In this document: positions 43,061 through 63,670 of the stretch, one piece after another
Layout of the letters: every line of letters begins with the position of its first letter
How positions within the stretch are numbered: the first letter of the stretch is position 1
Source: Apostichopus japonicus
Lineage: Eukaryota > Echinodermata > Holothuroidea > Aspidochirotida > Stichopodidae
Assembly (NCBI RefSeq): GCF_037975245.1
Contig: NC_092579.1
Location: 7,191,001 to 7,255,000 of the forward strand
Direction: 5' to 3'
DNA: 64,000 nucleotides
Made by a program: the position numbers and the translations under genes
Notes under the pieces: generated by a model
Seen by the model: the letters and a program-made list of their open reading frames with translations, nothing else
What the model was told of the DNA's origin: nothing
The model's database searches: none

Positions 43061-43368
43061 ATGCCGTTAACTTTAGGAGACGGATACAGCGACGGATACG
43101 CCCGTCTTTTTTCGAGTTTAGTTTCCCGCGGGCCTCAGCATATACACTGGTCCCTCGGGCAACTCCGAGAGCATATTTACAATTGGGTCAGGGTGACGGT
43201 TAAACTGGCACCACTAGGTCGTCGTGTGCCCTGGCCCTTATAACCTCCTCCCGACTTTTAAAAAGATTCGAGCTTTTCATATATAAGCCCCCAAAACTCC
43301 TGGATAGGGTTTGACAATGGACCGAGGCCCGGGGGTTGGGTTGGGAATTGCTCACTGCTGGTAGTAAC

Positions 43369-43700
43369 CAGGGGCGTATCCAGGATTTTCTAACCGGGGG
43401 GGCGCGAATTACTATCTAAGCGGAGCGCCACCATCGGTTGGCGCGGAGCGTAAAAGAAAATTTCAGGTTTTGATACCCCCTAGATCACCGGAAATGGCAC
43501 TTCTCGGGCTTGAAAATGAGCAACCAGATGTACACTTTTGCCTGAGAACCAAGTATTTCCCAATATTTTTTTTTCCATCCATAACCTTTTTGAAGATTGT
43601 AACCAGTCACACATCATGTTCGACCTCATTGCATGTCCTGTTGATCATTGCTTTTGTAGGTGATTCTACGTCACGGCCCACAATATCCGAAAGCCCCACT
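43369..43700 (+). mobile_element. hAT-family fragment (same family as 5714-7066)
   Basis: It begins with the hAT-like end CAGGGGCGTATCCAGG. It then shows the family block CTATCTAAGCGGAGCGCCAC and, after it, GGAAATGGCACTTCTCGGGC, which corresponds to the inverse strand of 6925-7015. The right end is not recognisable, so the boundary at 43700 is approximate. Confidence 0.6.
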
Positions 43701-44038
43701 TTTCAAAGTTTAAAGCCCATTATTTGTTCAGAATTTGAAAATTCACATTTCTCGTGAAGAAAATCATATCAAAACATATACATAATGTTGCACAAAATTC
43801 AATCTATGGATAACCAATATAGAAAAACCTCCTTCAACCCCTAACAGACCGGTCAAAATTGCTACGAGTAGAGGGAAGTATGATGAAGAATGTTGGTCAG
43901 GAAGTTTTCGAAAATTCAGACACAGTTAATTTATTGGTGTACAAATATTACAACCTCTTATAACGGCAATTATAAAACTTCGTTGAAGGAAATGAAAAAT
44001 AGCAGATATTTCCGATATCAGATATTTCGAAACCGAAC

Positions 44039-44373
44039 ACTACACACATAGGCGTAGGAGGCGGGGCTGCAGCCCCCCCCCCCCAACCAAACTTGTTCCC
44101 CTGAAAATTCGGGCAATATGCTGAGAATAAATGAATAGTTTAAAAATGATCTCCTTGGTAATTAAAATAAAGTTCTAGGCTTGGCAGACTAATTCGCCAT
44201 TACTACTGTAAAAGAGAGTTTTGACATAATTGGACCTGCATGCTTTTTCTCCATCTACATAAGACATTTCGTTGTTTACATTAGCATCCTGCGGATGACT
44301 GCGCAACTTTCACGGACCGTACGGTACACGATGCCATGCGATGTAATGACCTATGCTTGCTTATATGATATTG
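44039..44373 (+). mobile_element. Left part of a hAT-like MITE, interrupted; target duplication ACTACACA
   Basis: CATAGGCGTAGGAGGCGGGG starts at 44047, preceded by ACTACACA (44039-44046). The following AAATTCGGGCAATATGCTGA and the phrase around CATGCGATGT...ATATGATAT match the complete MITE at 37701-38074. The match stops at TATTG (44369-44373), where the (TATG)n tract begins. The other part of the element is at 62439-62546. Confidence 0.75.
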
Positions 44374-44601
44374 TATGTATGTATGTATGTATGTATGTGT
44401 GTATGTATGTATGTATGTATGTATGTATGTATGTATGTATGTATGTATGTATGTATGTATGTATGTATGTATGTATGTATGTATGTATGTATGTATGTAT
44501 GTATGTATGTATGTATGTATGTATGTATGTATGTATGTATGTATGTATGTATGTATGTATGTATGTATGTATGTATGTATGTATGTATGTATGTATGTAT
44601 G
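44374..44601. repeat. (TATG)n microsatellite, left half of a split SINE tail
   Basis: About 57 tetramers with one TGTG variant near 44397. It has the same strand orientation as the (TATG)n at 62048-62210. I interpret both as one SINE tail separated by a 17.4-kb insertion. Coding frames across it are artefacts. Confidence 0.95.
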
Positions 44602-44930
44602 ATTAAGTGCCTTATGGAGACAAATTTGAGCATACAACTATCCTTATGGCGACACAAATCCTTGTGGAGACAAAAAGTAGGTCTCCACAAGAAATAGTTT
44701 TCCCGCTAACTTCTCAGACCACCACAAACCTACTGGAGACGTTTGAGAAAGGTCACCATAGGGATACCCTTGTGGAGACCATCATAGGTATGCAGACGAT
44801 GTATACAAACAAAAACAAATGTAATGTAAGTGCTAGGGCGCCCTCATTTCTTAAGCCTCCACAAGGCTGTTTAAAATACTGCACAGTGAACTGTGAGTTG
44901 GAGTCTCCACATGGTCAGTTATACCGCCCT
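44602..44930 (+). repeat. Left subterminal array of GTGGAGAC/GTCTCCAC motifs
   Basis: At least seven occurrences of GGAGAC, GTCTCC or a one-base variant in 330 bases, in both orientations but with the outer copies all reading GGAGAC. Typical partners are CCTTGTGGAGAC and GTCTCCACAAG. These are likely recombinase or transposase binding sites if the block is mobile. Confidence 0.55.
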
Positions 44931-45885
44931 TGAATACTGACCACAAAATGAGGAAGAGAGAAATGGTCAAGATAGCTATCACCAAAGTGAGTACAATGTT
45001 TAAGCCTTTTTTTGTACCATTTAAAGTTGCACCATTTTTGAAAGTTTAGTTTCGGAATTTTATATCATTCTGCAAGGCCGAACAACATGACTATACAGTC
45101 AGTTATATTAAGTAGTAAGTACCAGTTCTGCGAAGGCTACAACAGTTCCACAGGATCTTGGATTGAAAAAAAAAGACCTAGCCTACTGTATTCTTCCCTT
45201 GATTAAACCAGGAACAACAGCATTGCATTGTTATTTATGCCCAAAGCTATATTTGCATGTCGAGGGTGGGAGGAGGGGGGGGGGGGGGTCTTTCATGTGT
45301 AACATTATTCCACTTATTTCTGTGCTAACTACATGCATTGTAATTTGTATGTGTCTCGATTGGCTTTGGACATAATCTGATTCGCTCTTTAACAACTGTT
45401 CAGGTTAGATAAATTTAAAATATCAAAGAGTGTTTGACAAAGCCATGTCAACACATTAATAACTTCAATGGAATTGAGCAGAAATAAAGACTCAATACTA
45501 GACCATTCTTTTTTATGTTTTTTTATTAACTGCAGATCACAAGTTTCAATTATTTTTTGAATTTGTATCAAGTCATTTTCTTTTTCTTTTCAGCCTTTCT
45601 TGCCCCATCCTACAGTATTAGCTGCATTCTCCAGAGGGATTACCCTGTCAAAGTAAACCAAAATACTTATTCGTGAAAGATTGCAAAAGATGCATTAAAC
45701 AACTTGTATTACAAACATTGTTGGGAATAACTTAGCATGTTAATGAGGAGGAGAACTTCGGTTAAAGCAAGTCGCATGTTAAAACAGACACTATGAGGCT
45801 GTTTGAACATTACAATCAGATATTTGATAGTGTGTGTTAACATACAGTGGCCAAATACTGTATTCATTACTTCCTACTTACACAG

Positions 45886-47382
45886 TTAGGGTACATGTAG
45901 AATGCTCCAAACCAAATACCCAAGACTAAAAAGAAAAGTGAAGAGGAGAGTTCCAAGTACAACAGCGATAATTGCAACATGTTTTGCATCTCTTGGTTCT
46001 GTGACTTGCACCAACGAAATTGTGCGCCTCACTGGATTCACTGGATTCATTCTTGCTGTTGGAATGGACTAAGGAGATAAAGTATATAACAAAATGCTGA
46101 AGTTCATTACTCGTTGGGAAAAGAGATTTTTTTACCAGGGGCTAATGTGAGTTTGTACATATGAACATTCCAGATTGAAAATTGTGTATCCGACATTCAA
46201 GAGTTTGCTTTCTGTATAAGAGAGTAACTTCCCATTGGACTTGTGAATGCAAACTGTGGGAAAAGAAGATGGTAGGGTGACAGATGCAACATGTTAGGGG
46301 CTTGCTGTTTCAGCACTTATTGATGAACTGTTAGAACACATCAGATGATTAGTGATTTGGTAAGCAAGCTATCCAATAACTGAAAATATTTAATTCCTTT
46401 TGTTAATAACATGTGAAAACTATATGAAGGGCACATAGCAGTATAGCACAATTATTGTGAAACTTTGTTCAGGCTTGCAACCACTTGGTTTTGGAATTTG
46501 GGTTTGGAGGTAAATGTTTTACTTCAGTGATCAGTTCTTGTGTGTGTGTGTGTGTGTGTGTGCAGTTTAAGGATGGTTTACCGGTTATCCGAGTAAAATA
46601 TTTGACTGGTTATAATTTGATGTAAATATGAAACTGCACATATACCTACTGCATGTACAGGCCTTTGAGCCACTACGGTTTGTGAGCATTTAGCTTTGTG
46701 AGATGCACACATGATTGTTTATACTTCTTTGCCTCAAATGCAGTTCAGTATTAATTACATAGGTATTTTTATTTAACATGGGATTTAAGAATGCAAACAA
46801 TTTGTAATATTTGGTATAATTAAGTGGCATTATTGTGAAACAAGATAAATAAGATTACAAGTTAGGTAGAGTTTCTCTTTAAATCTTCAAATATAAAACA
46901 CTACCATTACTATTGTTATGGGTTGTGCCTTTAGAAGACATTCTATGTAGTCTTAGAAGAGGTAGGGTGAGAGGGAAGATAACGGTCATGAGCTGAAATA
47001 AAGAATTATCACACATATTTTGCACCTTCCTTGTAAAGTTCTTTCTTCTTTTATTAAAACCTGTGGTCCTACACTCTGCAGCTGTACACTAAGGCCTATA
47101 TAGTCTTCTATGCCTTTCAGTAATCTTGCACATAACCAGAAAATGATAGGCCAGCCACTATACCTAAATGTTATTATTTGGGCAAAACAGCTAGTTCACT
47201 TGGCGCATATAGTATTACTCAACAAAAATATCTCACTAAACCTACCTTCCAAGTCTTTAAAATGTGTACTATCTTAATTGATGAGCCAAATGTAGCATGA
47301 GAGCCGTCTGGAGACATGTATTTGGCCTGTTTAGTGCACAAGCCTCCACAAGACTGGTCTGTATAGAGTGTTGAATACACTA
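45886..47382 (-). CDS. Last two exons of an unidentified single-pass membrane protein gene
   Basis: Exon 47382-47246 (entry phase 1, good acceptor TATACAG, donor AAG|GTAGGT) joins in phase 0 to the terminal exon 46068-45886 (acceptor TCTCCTTAG, stop TAA). The first gives a Cys-containing segment with STLYTDQSCGGLCTKQAKYM and HATFGSSIKIVHILKTWK. The second gives a basic stretch NPVRRTISLVQVTEPRDAKH, then one hydrophobic helix of about 24 residues (VAIIAVVLGTLLFTFLFSLGYLVW) and a four- to five-residue tail. This looks like a C-terminally anchored membrane protein with a disulphide-bearing domain. The family is unknown. Upstream exons should lie at 47.7-48.7 kb. The gene is divergent from the SET/recombinase gene, and both lie in the candidate mobile block. 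Confidence 0.45.
46541..46562. repeat. (TG)n microsatellite
   Basis: Eleven TG units. Confidence 0.9.
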
Positions 47383-47694
47383 CTGTATATGTACAGCACA
47401 CAGGTCATTATAATTACTCTGAGTGGCAAAGTGCATGGGGAATCCCCTTTTTTGTGGACAATAATCTGAGAGGGCAATTAAGGGCAGTGGATATGTGAGA
47501 ATAACACTTTTTTCTTTAATGCTTTCTTTTGATGGACTGCTGATATTCAAGAGAAAGAAAAAACAATTGCAACAAACAAGCACTTAGCATATAGTGAAAA
47601 GTTAAGCCTTTATCAGTTTTGCAATTTGCCCCAAATGTGGTACCACCTTTGCAAGAGTTATCCTGCAACTTTACCTCAATTGTTAGCCATGCCA

Positions 47695-47925
47695 ATCCCA
47701 AAATTTCCAATTTTTAAAAGTGAAGGTTACTCCTTGAGTGTCTCCATTTGGCTTGTAAACATATGGGCAACATCTGGCAGATGTAGCCAATAAATTACTT
47801 TTATTCCATTTAATTTCCTCCTCAGTCATATATGGCTCTCCCTGTCCTCTGGCCACAGTTTCAATCTTGTCATACCATGTAGGCCTGTGCATGGACAATC
47901 TGAACCCCCCCCCCCCCACCCTTAA
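47695..47925 (-). CDS. Probable upstream exon of the minus-strand membrane-protein gene
   Basis: After a pyrimidine-rich stretch and TTTAAG, a 15-base G run leads into an open frame with clear protein character: SMHRPTWYDKIETVARGQGE, YMTEEEIKWNKSN and SARCCPYVYKPNGDTQGVTF. The frame ends at a stop near 47683 with no donor in the needed phase. The G run could hide a length error. A further short exon at about 48028-47962, with acceptor TTACAG and donor GTAAGG, may precede it. I could not close the phases, so only the protein-like frame is claimed. Confidence 0.3.
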
Positions 47926-49152
47926 ACAAAGAAAGGAAACATCATTGAAATCCTTACATATGAGTTTGAATTGTTCGATGGATTCAGCTGCCAATGACTC
48001 AAGCTCAGCTTTGACTGTGATCTATACTGTAAGTTGTTGACTTGTCAAGAAGAAGCAGAATGCACAGATAAATACATTGCTTTCGTCTTTTGATGATATG
48101 AATATTTTTTTCAATCTGACATACTAATGAGATGCAGCAGTACCTGCATGGTGATAGCAAGTCTTCAAAAATTACATATAGGTATATATTTTATTATGGT
48201 CCCTGTTGACCCTTACAATCTTTGACCAGCTTTAAACGTAAAAGGCTCATGGGGCTCAAAGTAGTACACCCGTACACACCAAGAATCAAATTCTACCAAG
48301 CCTCACTTCTTGAGATTTATTTTTTGCAAGGTTATTTGACCCAAAAAGCACCTGTCCAAAAAGCTAGCAACGCGCTTTGAGGCTACGTGACCATATTTGA
48401 ATGGGGATGATAACTGTACTCGTACCGACACTGTTATTAGTTTACTGGCACCGACAGCGATTTCAACAAAATGTGTTCATCAAATTCGAGTGATTGATGC
48501 AGATCGTACTGTTCTGTACATCGCATTAAAAATCCACACGTGTATAATAGATGTAATGTGCTAGTACATAGACTGGTATGCTGCAACGTTACACCGAAGA
48601 GGGAACTCCAGCAGGTCTCCAATAGGAAAACCCATAGCAATTCCCCCGCGCTCTTCCTTATGTAGCGACGGAATGTCACAACAGTTACTTCCCATACCCC
48701 CGTTGACTTACTGTTAGGCCATGTTTTTCTTCACCGATAACAGTTCTTTCCTCATTTCATTACACTTTGTCTTAAAATCTTAAGAAAGGTGGAATAAATC
48801 TCTTCATATCTCAGTGGTTTTCTAGTTTCTATTTAGTATGGCACAATCGGACTTTGGGGGTTAAAAATGTAGAGCTACGCAATTTTTGAAAACCAAAATT
48901 CACGCGTAAAACACATTACTGAAAGTTCAATTGTGTCTCTATAACACTGGCCCTCCTCTTTCTCTGTATTGAATATGCATTACAAATGAATGACAGATTC
49001 TTTACATTTAAAACTATTGTGATTGGTTAAAATTCTCAATCGGACCTAGAGGTAACAAATGAGAGTTATCGTTAGAAAATATCGACCTTCGTGCCCAACC
49101 TCGAAAGACGCTATTGTAAACCATTGATCATTACTATCCTAGCTAGGTAACA

Positions 49153-52100
49153 ATGAAGACTCGTGGAAAGAGGGTGAGTAAATACATCAATCTGTAATAT
49201 TTTCAATTTAGCTGTCCATTGCTTAGGCATATGAGCCAGGGAGTTGAGGGGGACTGCAGCCTCTTCCTCCTTGGAGTTGGCCAAAGCAAATTTCTCTGGC
49301 AAATTACTGGAAAAGCCAGGAGAAATCTCAATAGTAATAGGTGGGTGATGATTTCATTTGTGCTTTGTTTCTTCCCTACTGTTTGGCTGTTATGTAGAAT
49401 TTTTTAGGTTATATTTATATACAAGTGGGTACAATGCAAGAAGAGAATTACCTCTTCGGGTTGTCATAAACCAAATTTTTCACCCATTTGAATGTGAAGC
49501 TTTCGGTGTAGGTCAAAGGGCATAGGGATCAACAGGAGTCAACATGTGAAAACGTTTGTTAATTTAATATTCCATGAATGTATCAAGGAGGAATTCTCAT
49601 GTTTAGTTGCTGAGGTACTAAATTGAGTTGAATCATCTGTATGGGTTATGGTTTACCCCTCTCATGTATTGACCCTGAATTATCTTACAGTGGTAGTATA
49701 TTACATAGTTTGCCAATTAGTTAAATTTCACAATGCGTCTTGTGCATTCACCTTGCTGAATGTGAGAAAATTGAAGTATGCAAAAAGAGAAATATGCAAG
49801 AATTAAATATAAATTTGACCAGATTGCTAATTTTGAATCCCTTGTACATTAAATTAGCTTTAGGGCCTTTCTGTATACTTGCACCTCTACACTGTGTTCT
49901 GCATAAGCACAAACAACTTGCAATAAAGTAAACTGGCATGGTGGCTGGAGCCCATTGCGGTGCACCCTAGCTACTGATTGTACATGCAGTGCAATGCACA
50001 TTGTCTCTCTTGACACTGACATACTGTTACATGTATCCATATTGTTGAACACATGTTAGAGCTTTAATTTGCAGTATTCAGTAATTGTGTTGTCACTGTG
50101 TTAACTTTTGATATCTTTTAATCTTCCCAAAGGATACAGATGTACCCAACTATGAGCAGGATCACCCTGGTCTTGAGAAGAAGTTCATCAGTGAAAGGAT
50201 TGGTGAGTGCTTTACTAGTAATAACATACATGCATGGCTAAGCAACAAGATATTTTTAGTGGTATTAGAGAAATTATATATTGGAGAGTTGTGTTTGCTG
50301 TTATTCATTTTTAAAGGAAATTGTTCATAGTTTTTCATTTATTTTTTTTAAGATATGGAGTGTTTGCAACACAATCAATTGAGAATGGGGAGTTCTTGCT
50401 GCAGTACAAGGGGGAGAGAATTACAACAGAAGAGGCAGAGGAAAGGGAGGTTGATTACATAAATCGTCAGCTGAGGCACTGCTATCAGTATTTTTATTCT
50501 GATAGAGGCAAGACATTATGGTAAGTTAAATTTCTTTTCGAAGTTTCCTGACCATGTCAGCCAGGCTGATCTGTCAGTGAAAAGTCAATTAGTCTGCTAG
50601 CCTAACATCATTTGTCAGTTGGATTAAAACTACAATTCTGTTTGAGTTAGGTGTCAAATAAAGCTCACTTGATGTAGGTTGGTGCAAGTCAGTTTCCAAT
50701 TTGTACTTCATACTGAAATATGCCAGAAGTCAAACAGAAGTCTCTAGAACTTTTGCTAATGGATCAGTTACCTTACTTCATCCTTTGAACTATGTTGTTG
50801 GCAAATTTTGGGTCGAATTGTGAAAACCTTGTAAACACATTATCTCAAGAGGAAAACCTTGGGCATAACTCATATGTTAGTGTGTTGAAGTACCATATAA
50901 AGGACAAGGAGCCTATTAATTTTGGTAGAGGTCAAAGGTCATTTGGGGTCACCGACGGTCAAATTGTGAAAACCTTGTAAAAACAATATCTCAAGAAGGA
51001 AAGCTTGAGCATACCTCTTGTTTAATGTGTAGGAGTACCATATTGAGGACAAGAAGCCTATTGATTTTGGTTGAGGTCAAAGGTTATTTGTGGTCAAATT
51101 GTGGAAAACCTTGTAAACATGATACCTCAAGAAGGAAAGCTTAGACAGACCTCATACTGTACTTAGTGTGTAGAAGTCACACATTTAATACAAGAAGCCT
51201 AGTGTTTTTTAAGGAGGTCAAAGGTCATTTGGGCTCACCAGGGGTCAACTTGTGAAACCTTGTAAATGAGACATCTCAAGAAGGGAATCATGGGCAGACT
51301 TCATATTTGGTTTGTAGAAGTACCACATAAAGTACAATAAAGCCAATTTGATTTTGATGGAGGTCAATATCATTTGGGGTCACCAGGGGTCAAATTGTGG
51401 AAACCTTGTAAAATGTTGCAAGAAAGGAACCTTGGACAGATCTCATATTTTGTTATTAGATATGCCATATCAAATTTAATTAACTTCATTCCCCTCTTAC
51501 CTGCCTCTCTTCACTAAGGCACCTTCCTTAACATAACATCACAAGGGTAGCTTTGGACATGTCTATCACATATTTGGTATGTAATTGTACCACATTGAGT
51601 ACAAGAAGCCTAATGTTGGCGGAGGTCAGTGGTTGAGTTCATGAGGGGTGAAATTGTGAAAAGTAGGACATTAAATTTAGTTGCTGATGTATCACTCTTA
51701 GTACAAGAAGCCTGTTGTTGAGGTCAATGGTCATTTCAGGACAGCCCGTGCCTTTGTGAATTTATTGTTTGTCACAACACAATGCGTTGCACTGTAATAC
51801 AAAGATCAAGTATGTTGTACACCCTCAGTATACATTACGTCAGATTCATGAAGAAAAGTGCTCATATTACATCATTGGTAGCACAATGCATTTTTGCATT
51901 CTGGTTAAGGATTAGTGTTATTTCACTGTGAGTTATTAATGATCATGATTTTGGAATAATCATGTCCTCCATGATAAGGTACTTGTTGGTAGTAATTGTA
52001 ATGATACAGGTATTTATAAGTAGAGTGTTAATATTATATTAAAAGTAAGGTATTTATCAGTAGTAGAGTACTCACCATTCCGCAAGATCGCGCTCATGCT

Positions 52101-55100
52101 TTGTAGCGCCTGTAAATTCCAACTGAGGAACACAATTAGTAGCTCCTGTCAAGAGCTATCAAGGAAATTATCTACAGCCATAATACAGTGTGTAGTGTGC
52201 TAAAGCCACTCACTTCAGTACTACATAGGGGTGCTACTGAAGCAATACATGAACTTCTTTAAAACTCAAAAGAAAATCTTTGTCAGTCAAGCTTTAACTC
52301 ATCACATTGCAAACAAGGTGAGATTTGTAATAACATGAATCTCTTACTTGTTGACTTTGTAGTTTTTGAAAGGAATTTGGAAGGGATATACGGGAAGGGT
52401 TTTGCTTATTTTAATTTTAATTAATTGGTCAGGGGATAAGGCTAGGAGAAGCTTACTGTTGGGTTTGGGCAAGAGTAATGGTAGTGACAGGTCTATAGGC
52501 ATTGTGGGAGTTACCACCACAAAGAATGAGATTTTGAAGGAAGATATTCATGGGAGACTTTTCTCTTCATTTTGTACATGGAGAAAGTTTAATTCATTGG
52601 GCATAAAAGGTTGCCTTCCTTTAATGATTGCAATCATTTAATGAAATACACAATAATTGTACATGTTTTTTTTTAATTTTATATCTTTCAGCATTGATGC
52701 AACCCATGTGAAAAAGTCACTTGGAAAATTTGTCAATGATGAAAAACCCCAAAAAGCAAACTGCAGAATGAAGAAGATAATTCACAATGAAGAAGTTATT
52801 CTTTGCTTGTTTTCAACAAAGGAAATTAATATTGGTGACGAGATACGGTATGACTATGGTTTAAAAAATCTTCCTTGGCGAACAGACAAGGATGGCAAGA
52901 GTACCCAACAGGAAGTTCAGGACAAAACTGAAGACAAACTGGATATAGAGTGTTGTGAACAATTACCTAGTATGATGGTGCTCAACACAACTCTTCACAG
53001 GGAAGATGATGAGGAAATTGTTGAGGGATCTTCCAATGAGATGTTGAGAGATGTTGGTTGCAGTAAAGAAGATCAAGCTTGTGAACAGAATAATAATGCA
53101 AAAGACCATTCACAGCAAGAAATACTGACCACTGCTAAAGACCCTAAAGAAGAAACTGGTGACAAACCTGATAAAGATGGTTGGGAACAGTTAAACAACA
53201 TGGCGATGCATAATACAGCACTTCAGAGAGAGGATGATGAGGAAATGGTTGAGGTATCTTCCATTGAAGATAGTGGTGACAAAATTTCAGATCAAGCTTG
53301 TAAGCAGAATACTAATGCAAAAGACCACTCACAGCAAGAAATACTGACCACTGCTAAAGACCCTAAAGAAGAAACTGGTGACAAACCTGATAAAGATGGT
53401 TGGGAACAGTTAACCAACATGGCGATGCATAATACAGCACTTCAGAGAGAGGATGATGAGGAAATGGTTGAGGTATCTTTCATTGAAGATAGTGGTGACA
53501 AAATTTCAGATCAAGCTTGTAAGCAGAATACTAATGCAAAAGGCCACTCACAGCAAGAAATACTGACCACTGCTAAAGACCCTAAAGAAGAAACTGGTGA
53601 CAAACCTGATAAAGATGGTTGGGAACAGTTAACCAACATGGCGATGCATAATACAGCACTTCAGAGAGAGGATGATGAGGAAATGGTTGAGGTATCTTCC
53701 ATTGAAGATAGTGGTGACAAAATTTCAGATCAAGCTTGTAAGCAGAATACTAATGCAGAGGACCACTCACAGCAAGAAAAATTGACCGCTGCTGGATACA
53801 CAAAAGAAGAAACTGGTAACAAACCTGATAAAGAGGATAGGGAACAATTACCTAACATGGCGATGCATAATACAGCACGTCGGAGAGAAGATGATGAGGA
53901 AATGGTTGAGGGATCTCCCATTGAAGAATGTGGTGACTGGAAAGCAAATAAAGCTATTGAACAGAAACCTAATGCAGAGGACAGCTCACAGCAAAATCAG
54001 ACATTAGACACTAGGTCTGATCTGGAGAAGGAACTTGCTAAGATAAGATCCATTCTTAGAGATACACACGTTTTTCCTATTATGGCAGCAGAGGTAGACT
54101 GTGAAACAGCCCTATTAAGTGATATTGAAAGTACTCATGAATATGAAGTTGCTGATGACATGAGTGATGCTTCTGAACATGAAGCCGATTCAGATTATCA
54201 TCCAGACCCTGGTGATTCAGAAAAGAACAGTGATCTTGAAAAGGATGATGACACATGTGACTTACCCAAAGATGTCCCTGGGACTTCAGGGACATGTTAC
54301 AATAAAGTGATTGATGCTAAAATGGATGCAGGCTACTGTGAAGATAATTCATCAGGTTGTGAACGGGAGCAGTTGGATGATGAAGAACAGGAGGAAGAAG
54401 AAGTCCATGTCAAATGTGCTCAAAGGAAACAAACAGAGAAAGGTTCCAAACGAGTCTACGATAAAAGAAATGCATGCTTGTTTTGTGGGAAGTTGTTAAA
54501 AGTTGTTATCGGTCGACACTATCTAAGTCAACATAAAGATGAAGTTGCTGTTGCACAGATAATGGCACTGCCTGTGGGATCAAGGGAGCGGAAAGTTAAA
54601 CTAGACCTTCTGCGAAACAAAGGAAATTTCTTTCACAATGAAGAAGTGATACAAACACAGACTGGAGAGATAATTTTGATGCGAAGACCATCAACTGGAG
54701 CCTACTTTGACTTGGATGATTACGGCCCCTGTCCACAGTGTTTGGGATATGTTAGTAAGGATGATTTGTGGAGGCATGTGCGGTATAGATGCATTGCCAA
54801 AGAATCAGAATCCAAGGGAGAAAGTAAAAAGAGATCACGAGTTCGCATGGAAAGTGACATCCTTATGAAACGGTACAACGGAGCAAGTGACAAATTGAAA
54901 AGAATGGTCTTATCTTCAATGAAGAGAGATGAGCTGTTTGATGTTCTTAGCAATGACATACTCATACTTGAATATGGAAACCAAGTGCTTCGCAACCAGC
55001 AAACCAGAAAGCATATTGTGTCCCAAAAAATGAGAGCACTTGCTAGTGTCTTACTAGAACTAAGGAAATCTGATCCTAATGGTGGCCAGAACATCAGTGA

Positions 55101-58100
55101 TTTCATAAAACCATCCAAGTTTGATATGGTAGTTGAGGCAGTGGAAAAAAGATGTGCCATAGTTGAAAATGATAATGGTGGAAATTGTCAGTATAAGTTT
55201 CCATCATTCGCTATAAAGTCAGGGCATGACTTGGTCTGGATCACAAGAATCAAGCGTAGCCAGGCAATAAGGCAAGGTGATGCTAAAGCTGAAGAAGAAG
55301 CAAACATATTTGCAACTTCATCAAGCAGAATGGCATGTGAAAGTTGCTTCAGCAGCTGCTTCCACATTGAATGTAAGAAAGTGTGAAAAAGTAGTCAGCC
55401 TCCCAAGTGCTTCTGATCTGAAGAAAGTTTCTGAGCACACACGATCTCAGATTAAAAGTTTGACCAGTAAACTGATGAGTGCTAAACCTGAGTTCAGAGA
55501 TTATCGTCTATTGCAGAAAATGACCCTAGCAAGACTGATCGTCTTTAACAAACGCAGACCAGCTGAAATGGCAAAATTGCCTGTAGCTTCCATCTTAAAC
55601 CGGCCGCAGTGGGAGAAATGTCAGATTGATGAATTAGCTCATAATCTAAATGCTTTGGAGAAAGAGCTGTCTAAGCGGTACCAGCTAGTTAAAATTGTGG
55701 GAAAACGTGGCCGTCCAGTCGCAGTTATTATTCCACCAGAATGTTCTGAATCTCTTAAGTTGATCATTGATCAAAGGGAATCATTTGGCATACCAGCCGG
55801 CAACCCATATGTGTTTGCTAGGTCTACTTCAGCATCATTTCTTGATGGAGGAGAGTGCCTTTCTGAAGTAATTACTGGTCTGGATTTAGAAGCACCAGAG
55901 ACCATAAAGAGCACCAAAATGAGACAGTATGCTGCAACTGTCTCACAAGTCTTAAGTCTTGGTAGTCAGGAGGTAGAGTGGCTGGCAAGCCATCTTGGTC
56001 ATGATGTGGCAATTCACAAGCAATATTATAGACTCCAGGAGTCAACAGTTGAACTGTGCAAAGTTTCCAAATTGCTCCTTGCCATGGATCGAGGCAAAGT
56101 TTCTAACTTAAGAGGAAAGACGTTGGATGAAATCAGTGTTGATGGTAAGAATTTATTTAAGTAGTTCAATTAGCAGGAGTAAGCTACTTATGACAAGAAA
56201 TGTAAAGAACATTTAACATCTTCTCTAATAAAATGACTTAATATGCCAATGTTACTTAACTTAGGTTATGTTCACAAACTGGAGTTATTCAGCATCCATG
56301 ACTCTAGGTCAGATCAGTGCAAGCATATTAGTACCTTGACCATTTCAGTAAAAAAAGGCTGGTTTTGGCTGGCATTCTACCTAATTTCTCTAAAGGTTGC
56401 CCCAAGATTGCTTTGGCTACATTTTGTCATCAATTATAAGACAAATTTTTTGAACTTCACAATCCAACAGACATTCCTGTGTTTGAAGATGAACAAATTG
56501 AAGAATCTGTTGCAATGCATCAGCTTGAGGGTGGTGAGTCTCTTTTGTATTATGTTGCATGTCTTATCTAGACATCTCATATTAAAGGGTAGATATATCA
56601 GAGAAACAAGGTAAATTATTTCTTGGGTATACTTTCTTGTAACACAAAGCTTACTATATAGGGCTGAAAAGGAATTGTCATGTTGGTAAACATGGCAAAT
56701 GAAAGTACCTGTAGAATTGAACGGACATAGGCATCATATTAAACAGATGTTCAAAGGTATTGCCTGTAATTAAGGAAAAACAACAAACCAACTCTTACTT
56801 AACTCTCCAGCCCCCATTTGTTCTCACGTCTTTCAGGGAACATTGGATGATAGATAACATGTTCCGAATAAGTAGAATTGTTATTACTTTTAGTTGCGTA
56901 AACTTGTGACCATTGCTTATCAACTAATCTACACATTTGGCATTTGTCTGTCTTATAGATAACCATTCAGATGAGGAGGGGAAGCAGAGCCATCATGATC
57001 CACCTGTACTGGAAAACACTTCCTCTGGTGAGTTTTTTGTGGAGATAATGCAAGTGATATCTGAGACTTATGTTGTATTCCAGCCCTGCCATTTAAGATA
57101 AAAAACATAAGTATGTTAACCTTGATCTATATACCCCTGGATGAGTCCATATCTTTGTTTCTTTCATGGGATTCAATTGCAGCCAAACTCACATACTTGT
57201 CAAATTGACTCCCTAGGTATGTTCCACCTTCGGCCAATACCTTTATCTTGAATTAGTGCCAAATCAATCCTTACCAAAATAGGTTTTATTGATACAGTTT
57301 TTAATATTTTAAAAACATTTACAGTGCAGTTCAGTTCAAAAGGGACTACAGAAAGATGAGTGTGATTTATTACCTTAAGCTGCTTTAGTGTGCTAGGCCA
57401 GGATCCTAACAAAGGATTGTGTTAGCTTGCACTCACAACAATACCGTAGAAAACTGATTAATAAATTGCTATTTACAGTCATCAAGGAATTTATGTGGCC
57501 TCACAAAAATCTGACAGGAGGACATTGATACAGAGCAAGCATTTCTTGCAGTCCATTGTCCCGATAAGACCACATATTTTGATGTTCAAATTAGGTGAAA
57601 GTATTCTTAGAATCAATGTTTAGGAAGATATTTTTTAGTTATTAACTTATTGCCCAGACTTAAACCGTTCCAAGAAATGAAAAATGTTAATACCATGTAG
57701 ACATGTAACATTGATGGACTTATCAAACGTAATATGGCACCCTTCTGCCTTTTATTTATAAGTTTCTCTGCTATAAGCTAGAGATCATGATTGAAAGAGT
57801 GAAAGTTGGTTTGAAGTTTAGCCTTGTATTGTATTGGCACCCATTGACAATTACTGCAAGGCAATTGTACAATATTGGCCATTTTTGTTGAGTAACACCG
57901 AATGTTGGTATCTTCTGTCTAAAGTTGCCTCTCATTTGCAAGGAATCACTTAGCTATTTGATTTCCTGGTTTATTTGGTATCATATTGCACTTTTTGTCT
58001 ATGATCTTATATAAAAGCCAAGGTATCAAAGACACAGGGTAAATTATTAAAAGCAATTTGCCTGGAATACAAAGAAGCTACTGTATCAGGCTTCATGAAG

Positions 58101-59278
58101 GAAATGTCAAGTAGATGCAATTTGGTAGAAATGAGGGAACATAGGCTTGATATTTAGCAGATTTTCTGAGGCATTGTCTAAAGGGAAAAACCACAAACCA
58201 ATTTGACATCTGTCCTGTTACTCAAGTCTTCATTCCCCCACATGTTACCTGATTGAAATAAAATTGCTAGTACTTTTGCCATGCAAACTTGTGACCATTG
58301 TTTTTTATTAACCTAATCATTTGGCATTTGTCTGTCTTACAGATAACAATTCAGATGATGAAATGGGAATACAGGGCTCTCAAGATCAATTGGTACTGGA
58401 AAACACCTCATCTGGTGAGTTTTTGGTAGAGATAATGCAAGTTATATCTGAGAAAGATGAGTGTAATTTAAGACCCTAAGCTGGTTAATTGAATGTCCAT
58501 TTTTTGGATCCCAGTTGTGAGGTACCCTTCTCAATGCAAGTCTTTGTGCACTACATGCCAACATGCAGTCACTCCAACTTCGATAGTGTCAAGGACTTTC
58601 AAATCCCCGCTGGATTCCATCGCCTATATGAGTATTATCCAGCCAAGGGTTCCTGTTTGGAACCAACTGGAGTCCAAGATGGCCCCCACTTCTGCCCTGA
58701 CTGACAATTCACATCTTAGCTAGGCTTTTGCAACATCATTGTGCTTGTTTTGTTGTGAATTTGTAATTTTGTGATTGAAGGCATACTTAAAAGAGTTACA
58801 AATTCCAGTGTGCATCAGGTATATCTAGTCAAACTTTTTATGTCATACATACCGACAAGGAAGTGTTGTCAAAGAGAAGCCCTTGTTATAGCATTTTAGA
58901 AGAACCTATAATTACTCGTTAGTGGATGTGTATATATATTTATCATTTAAAAAGCACTAGAGGGAAGGAAGCAAGTTCACAGAAAATGTTTTTTATTCAA
59001 TAAAGAGTTTAACCAGGTTACATAAACTTTGCGTTTTACTATTACCTCCTGCAGGTAAACGATTTTTCCGAAAGCAAAAGAAAAAAGTCCCTTGGACAGC
59101 TGAGGAAAAAAAGACCATCTTCAAGCATTTTCAAAAGAACATAAAGCAAGGAAAAAACCCTGGCAGAGATGCCTGCAGGTCTGCTGTTGAAAAATTTCCA
59201 TGTCTCGCCAGAAGGACTCCTGACAACGTAAAAGACTATGTCCGGAACCAAATTGTAAGATTGGCAAAAGGAATTTAA
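49153..59278 (+). CDS. SET-domain (KMT5A/SETD8-like) methyltransferase fused to zinc fingers and a Crypton-like tyrosine recombinase
   Basis: Exons: 49153-49173, 50133-50202, 50352-50520, 52692-56144, 56959-57027, 58343-58414, 59055-59278; about 1358 residues if two one-base lesions are ignored. Residues about 28-150 are a SET domain of the KMT5A (H4K20 monomethylase) type: YGVFATQSIENGEFLLQYKG, then KTLCIDATH and GDEIRYDYG. Next come five acidic 73-residue repeats (about 151-516), then an acidic linker. Two zinc fingers follow: CLFCG...RHYLSQH at about 680 and CPQC...RHVRYRC at about 766. A helical core-binding-like region precedes the tyrosine-recombinase domain (about 1090-1225), with GKRGRPV, KMRQYAAT, LASHLGHD and KQYYRL supplying the R, H and Y positions. 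The last 74 residues are basic and Trp-led (VPWTAEEKKTIFKHF). The NHS SAM-binding motif of SET is changed to NDE. Lesions: the intron-2 acceptor is off by one, and there is a +1 frameshift near 55285. Confidence 0.7.
50352..50520 (+). pseudogene. SET exon with acceptor shifted by one base (lesion 1)
   Basis: Exon 2 ends in phase 1 (ATT G|GTGAGT). To read the expected Ile-Gly-Tyr-Gly, exon 3 must start at 50352 (GATATGGAG), but the bases before it are AA. The only AG ends at 50352, so a normal acceptor gives an exon starting at 50353 and a frameshift. Loss of one G from an original AAGGATATGG explains this in one step. The exon's donor (TATG|GTAAGT) and the next acceptor (TTTCAG|CATTGATGC) are in correct phase. 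This is either an inactivating deletion or an assembly indel. Confidence 0.55.
50810..51770. repeat. Degenerate tandem repeat, unit about 145 bp, rich in AGGTCA half-sites
   Basis: Copies are marked by GAAAACCTTGTAAACA-like phrases at about 50821, 50968, 51104, 51253 and 51396. They are linked by ATCTCAAGAAGGAAAGCTTG, AAGTACCATAT, AAGAAGCCTATTGATTTTGG and AGGTCAAAGGTCATTTGGGG. It fills most of intron 3 of the SET/recombinase gene. Confidence 0.8.
52882..53976 (+). repeat. 219-bp in-frame coding minisatellite, about five units
   Basis: Unit starts at 53101, 53320, 53539 and 53758 are exactly 219 bases apart, and the next boundary is 53977. A diverged first unit covers about 52882-53100. Each unit encodes 73 acidic residues with DHSQQEILTTAKDPKEETGD, MAMHNTALQREDDEEM and DSGDKISDQACKQN. 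The units starting at 53320 and 53539 are nearly identical, so this is a recent expansion. The frame is preserved because 219 is divisible by 3. Confidence 0.95.
55277..55310 (+). pseudogene. Frameshift inside the recombinase region (lesion 2)
   Basis: The long frame from 52692 runs to a TGA at 55384-55386, but from about 55315 its peptide loses family character. The protein-like sequence continues in the next frame (HQAEWHVKVASAAASTLNVR), which stays open to the donor at 56144. One surplus base, most simply in the AAA at 55285-55287, restores a continuous reading through both parts. It may be a real mutation, a sequencing indel in a homopolymer, or a haplotype difference. Confidence 0.6.
56600..58480 (+). 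repeat. Duplicated segment containing a symmetrical exon
   Basis: About 56600-57070 and 58020-58450 match through intron sequence (GGTAAATTATT, CAACAAACCAA, CTTGTGACCATTG, ATTTGGCATTTGTCTGTCTTA), the exon, and the following intron (GAGATAATGCAAGT, ATATCTGAGA, AGATGAGTGT). The exons (69 and 72 bases) both start in phase 1 and encode DNxSDxE...LVLENTSS-type peptides. The second copy lacks about 280 bases of the 3' intron part. Confidence 0.8.
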
Positions 59279-61469
59279 GTGAGTTCCTGCTGCATATGGT
59301 CAATAAGATGAACATTATTTTTGCAGGCAAAAACAGGTATTGCATGTTAGGCAAGTGAAAAAGCTAAATGATTCAATATAAATCAGCCTTTTGTGTGAAA
59401 CAATTCAATATTTTTGATTGCATATGTTTATTGGCCTTGCTTCCTTCTTAAGGTTACTGCTTAATCTTTTTCAGCTGAAGAGCTCAGTTTGTAAGGCAAT
59501 ATTCATGTCTTTCTTGCATTCTTAATCTGTTCCAAAAGAACATTAGGGAAGGCAGAGTCCCTGACAGATATCACTCCTGCTCTCCCTACAATACAAAGAA
59601 TATGTTTAGAGGTAAGATGTTGTAAGGTAAGATGGTAAGATTACAACGAAAGGAATATAGGGTTTCAAGCACATTAACGGGAGAACAGTTTCCGACTGAA
59701 AACCCTGCTGTATCAGGTCCATAATGCAAAAAAAAAGGAATGATTTTATCCAAATGACCTGTTTGTGTTAAATGTAAATGTGTTTCTGATAGAAATGTTT
59801 GTTTAGTGTGGTTATTAGGAAATGAGGTCAAAAAGAGATACAAATCTGTATCATAATTTTTAAGAATTTCTTTAGATTGAGGAGAGCTTTTACAGTATTT
59901 TGGGAAGAACATATAAGTGAGGAGATTTCCTGGTGGATAGGCCTACTACATCAGGTCAGTCAGATGTATTTTTACAAGCAAAGAACAGTGTGAGTTATGC
60001 AAAAGAAAAGTTAAAGGGTTTCATTTTAATGAATTTTTTGTGTTTAACAGTTCTTTACTTCCGATAGCAAATGTCTGTTAGTTCTTTTTAGGAACTGAGA
60101 TTTTAGTCAGAAACCAAACTTCAAAATCAGTTTAGCTTAAGTGCTTCATTTATAAGAAAATTTAAAAACTTCTTTGAGAGGCTATTTAACAGTATATGTT
60201 GACAAGAACAAAGTTATTTTGAGAGTAAAGGACAGGCAATATCAGTTATCAAAAAAGAGACATGATCTTCTTAAAATTACCTTTTTGTGTTCAATATTTC
60301 TATGTTTTAAAGCAGGTGTTTGTTGAAACTACTTAGTAGATAGTGAGATCATCAAAAAGTTCCAAGGTTTAAACTCATTTACTCATAAACTCAATAAACT
60401 CAGCTAAAAAGCTTCATTTCTGGGTAATTTTGAAATCATACTTTGTTTGTATTTTGGTTGTGTTATCAAGTTAAACAAATGGCTTTCCCTTTTAATGTTA
60501 CTATTGACAGTATTACAAGGCTTAGTTTCATCAAGGAGAATAAATAACAGAATTCATTTATGTTCCAATTCGTACAGCTAATGATCTTTGAGAGTCAGAG
60601 GGTGGGTGAAAAAGATTTGAGATGTTAACCACGTGTAAAAAAATCTGAAGAAGAAAATATTCCAGATGCCAAGTACCTGATAATTTCGGACATCGGAAAT
60701 TATGTTGGTTCATATTTGCTGTACTAGTGCATGTGCTCCTTCTTGTTATATTCAGTGAAAGGTTAGCAACAGTGAAGATATTTTAGTTTTGATGCAACTA
60801 ATACACCAATGCAAACATGATGGAAATCATGTTCCATTATCAAGACCAAAGTACATATTTGCATTCTATTTTCTTATCTCTAATAGAGTAAAAAAGAAAA
60901 TGGTGTCCACTGTCATTTTACTTCTGTACATTGATTCAGCCCATGTTGTGTTGTCAGTATTACTGTTATTATGTTACTAGTTGTAAGTTCAAACTTGCTT
61001 AAAATTTTTAGAAATAATTTGAACATTTGTTAACATTAATTTAACATGTTGTAATGTTTACTTGTTTTAATTAAATGGTGTTCATATAATGTCTGTCCCT
61101 TTTCATATTTGTATGCATTTCTGTTGAAGGACCTGAGAGAATATGCCGGATGATCAGGGCAATAAACTGTAGTTAAAAACTGAACTTTGTTGTTTGAGAT
61201 AAACTAAAACTTCTATGAAAGCTTCACTTGGCTTGTCTACTGGAGAAGTGGGAATGAATACATGTAAAAAAAGTAATGAAAAGTAATAACTTTTCTAAAA
61301 ATTTAAGCATGGCCAACTGTATTTTTCTTGATAATTCCCTTGTGAAATTTAAAATGCAGTCATTACAAGCTTGCAAGGGGCAAGATGAAATAATAAGAAC
61401 AGTACTGGACTTAAACCAAGCAGGTTGGGTATTACAGCATTTGGAAGGTTTGGTTTTTGAGAATGTATA
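59279..61469. other. 3' flank of the SET/recombinase gene with decayed duplicates of its last exon
   Basis: 59515-59680 resembles the last exon (AAAAGAACAT, AAGGCAGAGTCCCTGACAGA, then GTAAGATTACAACGAAAGGA). Repeats of the 3'-UTR-like phrase (CCTGCTG..AT..GGTC..TAA, GCAAAAACAG..T..TGCA) recur near 59700, 59935 and 60225. None is open. The remainder is AT-rich, with AATAAA near 61161 as a possible late polyadenylation signal. Confidence 0.4.
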
Positions 61470-61975
61470 AAGTGGTCTCCAGAGGGATGATTCATAAAGA
61501 TGGTACTGAACTTCGGTCCAATACCAACTTATGTAAACTTGTCTCCAGAAGGAAGGATGATTCATTAGGATGGTACTGATCTGCAGTCCAATACCAACTT
61601 ATGTAAACTTGTCTCCAGAAGGAAGGATGATTCATAAGGATGGTACTGAATTGCAGTCCAATACCAACTTATGTAAACTAGTCTCCAGAAGGAAGGATGA
61701 TTCATTAGGATGGTACTGAACTGCAGTCCAATACCAACTTATGTAAACTAGTCTCCAGAAGGAATGGTGATTCATAAGGATGGTACTGAACTGCAGTCCA
61801 ATACCAACTTATGTAAACTAGTCTCCAGAAGGAATGGTGATTCATAAGGATGGTACTGAACTGCAGTCCAATACCAACTTATGTAAACTAGTCTCCAGAA
61901 GGAATGGTGATTCATAAGGATGGTACTGAACTGCAGTCCAATACCAACTTGTGTAATCAAGTCTCCAAAGGGTAT
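61470..61975. repeat. 70-bp tandem repeat, about seven units, carrying GTCTCCAGAAGG
   Basis: TGGTACTG recurs at 61501, 61571, 61641, 61711, 61781, 61851 and 61921, exactly 70 bases apart. Each unit contains GCAGTCCAATACCAACTTAT, then GTAAACTAGTCTCCAGAAGG. The last two full units are almost identical. Followed by single GTCTCC motifs up to 62031. It forms the right subterminal array of the candidate mobile block. Confidence 0.95.
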
Positions 61976-62047
61976 GTTTGATAAGGATGATGGGAGTCTC
62001 ACAAGTTGTCTCCACAGGGAAAGTCTCCATTAGGCCCACAACATGAG

Positions 62048-62125
62048 TATGTATGTATGCGTGTATGTATGTATGTATGTATGTATGTGTGTATGTATGT
62101 ATGTATGTATGTATGTATGTATGTA

Positions 62126-62174
<49 letters not shown>

Positions 62175-62210
62175 ATGTATGTATGTATGTGTGTATGTAT
62201 GTATGTATAT
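62048..62210. repeat. (TATG)n/(TG)n microsatellite, right half of a split SINE tail
   Basis: TATG tetramers with an internal (TG)n stretch at about 62130-62159. It directly abuts the 3' end of the minus-oriented SINE, so it is that SINE's tail. Confidence 0.95.
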
Positions 62211-62438
62211 GTGATCTTCCCGCAAGCAGGAACTCGCGAAAGAAGCCATGGAGGCTTATAGACTCCCAAGCTGACCGAAGCCAATCTCTCGGCACACATC
62301 CATTTAACGTCCATGTCGGGAAGTTGTTATTGAACAACACCCTTGCCAGACGACACACCTTGCTGTCGGCGGGGAATCGAACCGGGGATCTCATGACTGG
62401 GAGACGCCGGCGTTAACCACTAGGCTATACACTCCGCC
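62211..62438 (-). mobile_element. tRNA-derived SINE, copy 3, minus orientation
   Basis: Read on the minus strand from 62438: GGCGGAGTGTATAGCCTAGT followed by GGTTAACGCC (A-box region), then CCGGTTCGATTCCCCGCC (a near-perfect B box). The 3' body contains GCTTCGGTCAGCTTG and CTTTCGCGAGTTCCTGC, shared with the copies at 26226 and 31415. Its head abuts TATTG (62439-62443). The same pentamer stands at 44369-44373, at the far end of the split tail, so TATTG is probably the SINE target duplication. Confidence 0.75.
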
Positions 62439-62554
62439 TATTGACATTAACATGTTGAACGCGCGCTGTGCGCGCGAAAAATTTTGGTTATATTTTTCGG
62501 GCAAGTCGTTACAGCCCCCAAATCCAATTGGGCTCCTACGCCTTTGACTACACA
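62439..62554 (+). mobile_element. Right part of the interrupted hAT-like MITE; target duplication ACTACACA
   Basis: ACATTAACATGTTGAACGCG, TTATATTTTTCGGGCAAGTC and the end TTGGGCTCCTACGCCTTTG (to 62546) match the right half of the MITE at 37701-38074. It is followed by ACTACACA (62547-62554), identical to the octamer before the left end at 44039-44046. Confidence 0.75.
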
Positions 62555-62647
62555 CATAGACAGTTTTGAGGCTGTTCATTTTTGAACATGCATTTTCATG
62601 CTCACTGATATTATGTGATGTCTGCTCTTTGCTTTACAAATTCGAAC

Positions 62648-62880
62648 AGGCGTGTAGCGAGTAATTTGCCAACGGAAGGGCGAAGCCTGTAGGCAAACTA
62701 TCTAAGCGAAGCGCCACCATGGTTTGGCGCGAAGCGTACAAGAAAATTTTGGCCGAAAAAGCCTCCCAGATCGCTGGAAATGACACTTCCCAGGCCTTGT
62801 AAGTTGCATTTAAGCATTGTCTATTTTTAAATTACTAGCGATATCATAGAGAAAATTTGCTCGGGGGGGGCGGTCGCCCC
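62648..62880 (+). mobile_element. hAT-family fragment (same family as 5714-7066 and 43369)
   Basis: It begins near a CAGGCGTGTAGCGAG end-like sequence and shows the family block CTATCTAAGCGAAGCGCCAC and AAATGACACTTCCCAGGC. It stops in G/C-rich sequence. No right end or target duplication found. Confidence 0.55.
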
Positions 62881-63370
62881 TTCCCGAAATGCGTCATGTT
62901 CCCCGACGACTCGGTCGAGTTCAAGACCAGCCACAGTTGGTTCCATTGCACAATTGAACAATTGTTCAAGGCGTCCATACACACACACGCGTTATGCTAG
63001 ACCATATATAGTATATATATATAGATACATTAGTGAGAGAGGAAAAATGGAAACGTCAACTAGAGCACCAATGGTGCAGAAGCTCATACCTTTTCGAGCT
63101 TAAAAATGTAGGGCCCACAAAACTTTATGGCCCACCAAATTTCCGGCCATTTTTCAGATTCCACCAATTTTGGGCGCATGAGGGATACCCCCCCCCCCCC
63201 CCTCCGTTAGCAGAATACTGGCCACACCACTGGCTATAATTCCTATTTCCCCCCTTTAAATCCTGTTTTACCCACTCTCTCAAACAATACCACTGACATA
63301 CCCTATTAAACTTTCTCCCCTCTACCTGAGCAGACTTGAAGTATGGAACGCGAAAAGGTCAACCGTATTT

Positions 63371-63670
63371 CGTTGCCTAAACTAAGTTTGTTTCGTTGCC
63401 TAAACTAAGTTTGTTGCTGTCTAAACTAAAGCTGTTGCTGCTAGTTTACCATGTTGCTGTTGTTCGTTGATGTCTAAACTTACGTTGATGTCTAAAGTCA
63501 CGTTGACGACTAAACGCGCCTTAATGTCTAAACTCACGTTGATTTATAAACCTTACGGTTGATGTCTAAACTCACGTTGATGTCTAAAACTTTCGTTGCT
63601 AATTTAACTGCGGTTGATGTCTAAACTCACGTTGATGTCTACACTTTCGTTGCTATCTAAAGTTCCGTTG
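63371..63670. repeat. Degenerate 16-20 bp repeat GTTGATGTCTAAACTCAC
   Basis: About 14 imperfect units alternating GTTGCTGTCTAAACTAA, GTTGATGTCTAAACTCAC and CGTTGCTAATTTAA variants over 300 bases. No coding sense. Confidence 0.8.

Follow-up and report, generated by a model that had tools for sequence, protein, structure and literature searches.

A giant mobile element with a KMT5A-like SET domain and a putative tyrosine recombinase in (TATG)n microsatellites of Apostichopus japonicus

A stretch of 64,000 nucleotides from the holothuroid Apostichopus japonicus (NCBI RefSeq assembly GCF_037975245.1, contig NC_092579.1, positions 7,191,001 to 7,255,000 of the forward strand), referred to here as the window, contains a block of 17,445 bp on the plus strand (44602-62046, in window coordinates) that has the properties of a mobile element. 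An initial annotation, made from the letters alone, had read it as one mobile unit whose main gene joins a tyrosine recombinase (YR) to a KMT5A-like SET domain. The two (TATG)n tracts of the same orientation that it saw on both sides are confirmed by TRF (44372-44601 and 62047-62208, both on the plus strand) and form the two parts of the target microsatellite. The main gene encodes, in this order, a KMT5A-like SET domain, Cys/His motifs, a YR domain and perhaps a Myb-like exon. To the right of the second tract lies a tRNA-like short interspersed nuclear element (SINE) on the minus strand (62209-62438); its (CATA)n tail at the 3' end is the target. The left tract, too, belongs to the 3' tail of a tRNA-like SINE on the minus strand, which itself sits within an abundant repeat. 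We presume the SINE to be tRNA-like from A- and B-box-like sequence recognised by eye; neither ARAGORN nor Rfam identifies a tRNA or an RNA family in it or close to it.

The element exists in several copies. The assembly searched comprises 671.6 Mb in 35 contigs, with the window on contig C19; a K2P-channel-like and a histone-H1-like frame, recognised by eye, agree with an animal source. In this assembly the left 299 bp of the element have eight matches, each covering the whole query, and its right-most 97 bp have nine, in agreement with the expectation that other copies with the same ends would be found. By coordinate subtraction these combine into eight pairs of left and right ends spanning 17.1 to 19.0 kb (C19, which is the window copy, three on C17, and one each on C16, C11, C6 and C4), and C15 carries a right end without a paired left end. 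The eight paired copies are 97.45 to 99.95% identical over 3.8 kb around the recombinase and are therefore a recent family. Every left junction (8/8) and every right junction (9/9) lies in (TATG)n, and the strand and the tetramer phase are identical at all junctions seen. Exact (TATG)6 has 22,769 overlapping matches in the 671.6 Mb, which amounts to about 91 kb or about 0.014% of the genome; tract coverage is at least this high, since short and impure tracts are not counted. Chance placement of the element in (TATG)n is not credible. Three of the nine insertion sites (C19, C16 and C4) are tails of one SINE family, while the remaining six have no SINE match in the 1.5-kb right flank and none of the eight left flanks has one; the common factor is thus the microsatellite and not the SINE.

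The site in the window can be compared with paralogous sites. The host sequence is a very abundant dispersed repeat (seen at 43256-44371 and 62439-63500; 2,231 candidates at first look), which occurs with and without the nested SINE and appears to have been amplified while bearing it. Forty of the 2,231 candidates were scored and 30 loci fetched. Among these 30, 13 have the repeat, the SINE and an unbroken tract of 26 to 725 bp, 12 are without the SINE (11 by script, locus L071 by eye), two bear the element (the window and C16) and three are unreadable by script. The 13 element-free paralogues are empty sites, and they supply, from the same genome, the uninterrupted (TATG)n SINE tail that the initial annotation had suggested for comparison. 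A TATTG/CAATA match of 5 bp between the outer flanks is a candidate target duplication of the SINE itself, supported by the existence of SINE-free copies of the host repeat; the decisive set here is the SINE-free and element-free paralogues. These empty sites also bear on the idea that the tracts expanded only after insertion, from a TATG that the element brought along or that arose on its insertion. Tract length indeed differs strongly between copies (about 21-257 bp on the left and 55-860 bp on the right, by a loose script), as such expansion would predict. The 13 paralogues, however, bear the tract at the same place, and a SINE at 26.4 kb of the window has a 353-bp tract without any element, so that this idea is largely refuted and extremely improbable. 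The latter SINE, with its pure (ACAT)n tail, is an empty potential target; related SINE copies in the window lie at 26355-26791, 31415-31607 and 30953-30982.

It could also be imagined that a single locus was recently multiplied by segmental duplication. The window copy and that on C16 are alike in both flanks (about 1.3 kb, 97-98%), and no other copy shares both flanks of the window copy. That shared flank, however, is itself an abundant repeat, and the nearest copy of the window element is the one on C4 (99.84%), not that on C16 (99.50%). Since they are not mutual closest copies, two independent insertions into sites of one kind are the best reading. Among the left flanks (1.5 kb, plus strand, E 1e-5), similarity is found solely between the two copies in the same host repeat, the others being mutually dissimilar; on the right it is confined to the repeat or SINE (C16, C4 and C19) and to tract sequence. 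Duplication of a single locus is accordingly a very improbable origin of the copies. Homology does not continue smoothly past the ends, and the proposal of one mobile unit with a TATG core is well supported by the copies, the TATG junctions, the element-free paralogues and the flanks.

The copies have fixed ends. Seven of the eight left ends read TATG followed by TTTTCACATTTAGTGCC, and all nine right ends read CATGA followed by GTATG. The end points are identical at 9/9 right and 7/8 left ends; the exception is the window copy itself, which has an atypical left end without TTTTCAC. The left end of the seven copies and the right end form an ungapped inverted repeat matching at 17 of 23 positions, a score taken as the best across 9 x 9 offsets and matched by none of 20,000 mononucleotide shuffles. 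In the window the left arm is at 44602-44620 (plus strand), lacking the outermost bases present in the other seven copies, and the right arm, which matches the left arm of those copies at the 17 positions, is at 62024-62046 (minus strand). TGGAGAC motifs form subterminal clusters at either end of the element. The window holds 27 copies of TGGAGAC/GTCTCCA where 5.45 would be expected, and none of 100 shuffles has as many. The right array (61475-62029, minus strand) has all ten motifs in minus orientation. These are not independent, as most belong to a single tandem repeat with seven units of 70 bp (61485-61989). The left array (44615-44909) is mixed, with four motifs in plus and two in minus orientation, so that the inverted arrays described initially are uniform on the right side and not on the left. 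Separately, a lone left-end junction, GTATGTATGTTTTCAC, occurs without a 299-bp match (G000:C1:10273886) and may be due to chance or be a remnant; a reversed control pattern has three matches.

The SET domain of the main gene is split over two exons, an N-terminal half at 50354-50521 and a C-terminal half (IDATH...YDYG) at 52693-52860, both on the plus strand. By eye, an additional short N-terminal SET exon is likely near 50135-50202, and the SET exon splice sites do not join cleanly. A peptide joined by hand from the two exons has KMT5A as its best structure match (E 1.4e-15), which bears out the KMT5A-like assignment. YDYG and NHS are the catalytic motifs of KMT5A-type SET domains, and changes in the NHS motif of KMT5A abolish its activity. 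The element retains YDYG, while the NHS position reads VND (about 52732-52740), followed by two extra residues in comparison to KMT5A. Downstream follow, all on the plus strand, an acidic linker encoded by an in-frame tandem repeat of four 219-bp units (53070-53937, TRF) and two Cys/His motifs (CxxC...H...H and CPxC...H...C, 54475-54792). The latter recur by eye in related families and match Pfam zf-C2H2_4 at E 1.2. Behind the YR domain there is a possible Myb-like C-terminal exon (59087-59263, plus strand; Pfam Myb_DNA-binding E 0.03, below the cut-off), and a similar stretch follows the YR domain C-terminally, by eye, in two related families (L038 and L047). Ahead of the Myb-like exon, two frames that look nearly the same by eye (...VLENTSSGEF..VEIMQVISE) lie at 56928-57098 and 58312-58476, with 1.4 kb between them, and suggest that an exon was duplicated there. 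One frame of 909 amino acids in the window holds the C-terminal SET half, the acidic repeat, the Cys/His motifs and the start of the YR domain. Near 55305 the window copy has two bases fewer than the other copies, changing the frame within the YR domain. Open-frame lengths are equal at the SET and YR matches on C4 (1169), C17a (1096), C11 (1190), C6 (1263), C16 (1190) and C17b (1022); the SET half and the YR domain therefore share one frame in six of eight copies, the exceptions being C17c and the window. The intron between the SET exons contains a 145-bp tandem array (50810-51413), and a 133-bp unit resembling it by eye lies downstream of the YR domain in a sister family (L079). A minus-strand frame of 112 amino acids (47683-48021) has no Pfam or PDB match.

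The YR domain (55192-56035, plus strand) shows most of the catalytic pattern of this enzyme class: R in NKRRPAE (55547), K in VGKRG (55697), the xxR arginine in TKMR (55913) and LGH...Y (55991-56035). In an alignment of ten rows from this genome, three of which are near-copies of one sister family and two of the focal family, R, K, R and Y do not vary, and nine rows keep the H of LGH or MGH; one of these has MGH, and the tenth row reads LGD. Profile-profile comparison with XerD, XerC, FimB and FimE aligns K, the second R, LGH and Y (E 0.0044). An AlphaFold2 model of the domain has a mean predicted local distance difference test score (pLDDT) of 71.9 and a predicted template modelling score (pTM) of 0.72. 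Compared to the PDB, it ranks XerA, XerD and XerH first, and the first 24 of the 50 matches listed are tyrosine recombinases or phage repressors; the latter (YopR/MrpR and SroF) we take to be YR-derived. Among viral models the top named matches are mostly integrases and Vlf-1, with a best E of 0.0015. On the basis of these residues and the modelled fold, there is strong support for the assignment to the YR fold and family, and moderate support for recombinase activity.

The combination of SET and YR is not restricted to the focal family. There are at least 137 genome matches to the YR domain and, counted exon-wise, at least 139 to the SET query. Pairing was examined for the best 70 of the at least 137 YR matches (E <= 1.1e-29, most near full length; the 67 weaker ones were left out). 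A SET-exon match lies at most 40 kb upstream of 61 of these 70, on the same strand in every case. Outside the focal family this holds for 53 of 62 YR matches. A downstream SET match occurs at one of the 70, and the random expectation is about 0.004 per locus. Near-identical multicopy sister families (four copies on C15, C16 and C21; seven fetched of a group on C8, C16, C3 and C9) look, from their sequence, as if other SET-YR families have also been mobile recently. A sister family on C12 and C23 has a YR domain that is 45% identical and a SET exon 14-16 kb upstream; its ends, sought in 34.8 kb, were not reached. In this family (L078-L081; C12:11507889 and C23:7812457), offset matches between copies indicate tandem units of about 857 bp upstream of the YR domain. 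Of the 67 weaker YR matches, 24 are on C17 by hand count, most of them at 15-25 Mb, and the region of about 15.5-25 Mb can be read as a graveyard or a preferred region of SET-YR elements.

The recurrence of the pair is also relevant to the role of the SET domain. It could be a dead passenger, that is, a degenerate methyltransferase kept as a structural or protein-binding module, as the VND at the NHS motif of the window copy would suggest. The 53 of 62 non-focal YR matches with an upstream SET exon show that the domain is maintained across divergent families; this speaks for a function, but not for a catalytic one. This view, to which we give slightly less than an even chance, concerns the SET domain alone and is compatible with the mobile-element interpretation. 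The suggestion that SET acts on chromatin is an inference, and the change from NHS to VND calls for caution.

Taken together, these data make it probable that the block is a DNA transposon of autonomous type, which uses its YR to form a circle and has (TATG)n as attachment core; the YR is the sole recombination enzyme recognised. The element would leave as a circle, the joined ends of which would form the attachment site. Its expected junction is CACAACATGA-GTATG(TATG)n-TTTTCACATTT; if one TATG is kept, two imperfect 23-bp arms (...TCTCCATTAGGCCCACAACATGA and TCACATTTAGTGCCTTATGGAGA...) would surround a spacer of 8 bp, GTATGTTT. The GTATGT of the spacer can be found in every (TATG)n tract, so that the recombinase could exchange strands there and reinsert the circle into a microsatellite, leaving unique sequence undisturbed. 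The TGGAGAC motifs may serve as accessory sites, with the Cys/His and Myb-like parts as their accessory DNA-binding partners. The SET domain would most likely be a chromatin-contacting module that helps the recombinase to bind, or to establish itself, in chromatin of a chosen state, methylation by it being putative. More tentatively, and with rather less confidence than an even chance, SET-YR elements may be a superfamily of giant transposons of animals, large and self-contained, whose captured SET and YR act as one machine: the former would guide or protect the element by reading or writing a chromatin mark, and the latter would home to a simple repeat specific to the family.

A number of observations weigh against this interpretation. 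The YR part alone has no convincing match in Pfam, PHROGs, NCBIfam or PDB sequences, so that the tyrosine recombinase predicted by the initial annotation stands as to most of the catalytic pattern and the fold, and not at the level of sequence matches. A profile search of PDB sequences with the YR domain finds no YR. The H of the classical HxxR is T in the alignment, and S in one row. Pfam Integrase_1 is matched by three of the ten members with a best E of 0.045, and in one member the unrelated MOM1 scores 0.0031. The profile-profile match to the four E. coli enzymes has a probability of only 7.9, and the E values against single E. coli YRs (0.14-0.53) are not distinct from those of 11 unrelated controls (0.17-0.82). 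From residue 221 onwards, where LGH and the tyrosine are situated, the model is of low confidence (block means <=51). The fold matches in the PDB have E values of 0.009 or weaker, none being <= 0.001, and template modelling (TM) scores of about 0.4 or less. No head-to-tail junction is found in the assembly with a spacing of up to 24 extra bases; GTATGT is possible at both junctions, yet indistinguishable from the microsatellite. Target choice is known for the focal family alone, the ends of the other SET-YR families not having been reached. Finally, a cut-and-paste enzyme with a TATG-type duplication would be compatible with the junctions, as the duplication would be hidden inside (TATG)n and go unseen. 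In such a case a DDE transposase, either the element's own and unrecognised or supplied in trans, would move the block as a transposon with terminal inverted repeats, and the YR-SET gene would be captured cargo. The terminal inverted repeats and subterminal motif arrays of the element are typical of cut-and-paste elements, and animal Cryptons are reported to be without terminal repeats (PMC3212892). No other transposase, however, is recognised in the block, from which four frames were put to Pfam; the tetramer phase and strand are the same at all sites seen; and YR and SET recur as a conserved pair at dozens of divergent loci. A DDE transposase is for these reasons an improbable agent.

In certain aspects, the YR transposon favoured here is reminiscent of known systems, and microsatellite targeting by a eukaryotic YR is already known. 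CryptonV elements are likewise YR-encoding DNA transposons, some families of which insert specifically in microsatellites, as stated in a passage of PMC8869645 citing Kapitonov and Jurka (2012, Repbase Reports); by the title of that reference they are from cnidarians, and they are likened here by description alone. Such microsatellite-specific insertion is what is found at 8/8 left and 9/9 right ends. Animal CryptonA and CryptonI are also YR transposons, described as having no terminal repeats and no C-terminal domain (PMC3212892). The element differs from these by its 17/23 inverted repeats, an intron-bearing gene, a unit of 17 kb, the SET domain, the Cys/His motifs and possibly a Myb-like exon. 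The same paper gives 4- or 6-bp direct repeats at Crypton ends, where the initial annotation had named TATGG-like repeats for the first fungal ones, and, for the usual YR site, inverted repeats of 11-13 bp flanking 6-8 bp (PMC3212892). The catalytic residues and fold matches agree with the recombination enzyme of a Crypton, with weak support at the sequence level. Because of its terminal inverted repeats (an imperfect 17/23), which Cryptons are described as lacking, the element is not classed as a Crypton proper; CryptonV is known here by description only.

Other parallels concern the additional domains. The YRs of crustacean endogenous nimaviruses have C2H2 zinc-binding and SAM-like domains and are associated with insertion in a simple repeat, (TAACC/GGTTA)n, a point of resemblance to the present element. 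These nimaviruses differ in their virus-sized genomes and telomere-type repeat, and no SET is mentioned in the passages of PMC10871703 considered; the likeness is one of description, not of sequence. Relatives in viral and prokaryote contigs were sought and none found. SETMAR also joins a SET methyltransferase to a transposon recombination enzyme, but its transposase is of the mariner family and it is a gene of the host, in anthropoid primates (PMC6326780 and other papers), whereas the present elements are multicopy, mobile and equipped with a YR. Among solved structures, the SET part matches KMT5A/SETD8 best (E 1.4e-15), from which the element departs by VND at NHS, by two residues more and by the fusion to a recombinase; of the YDYG and NHS pair that marks the KMT5A type, it has the former and not the latter. 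Searches of an open-licence collection of papers did not turn up a SET domain in such elements, a scope outside which Repbase Reports, bioRxiv and subscription journals lie.

In this animal, a natural integrase appears to reach many near-identical and presumably harmless genomic sites by means of one short core, and the protein of the element bears its own chromatin module. The 23-8-23 attachment site is a concrete model that can be tested. A SET-YR gene, which in annotation could pass as a methyltransferase gene of the host, here belongs to a mobile unit. This raises the question of whether a histone methyltransferase domain borne by a transposon may steer the action of its recombinase.

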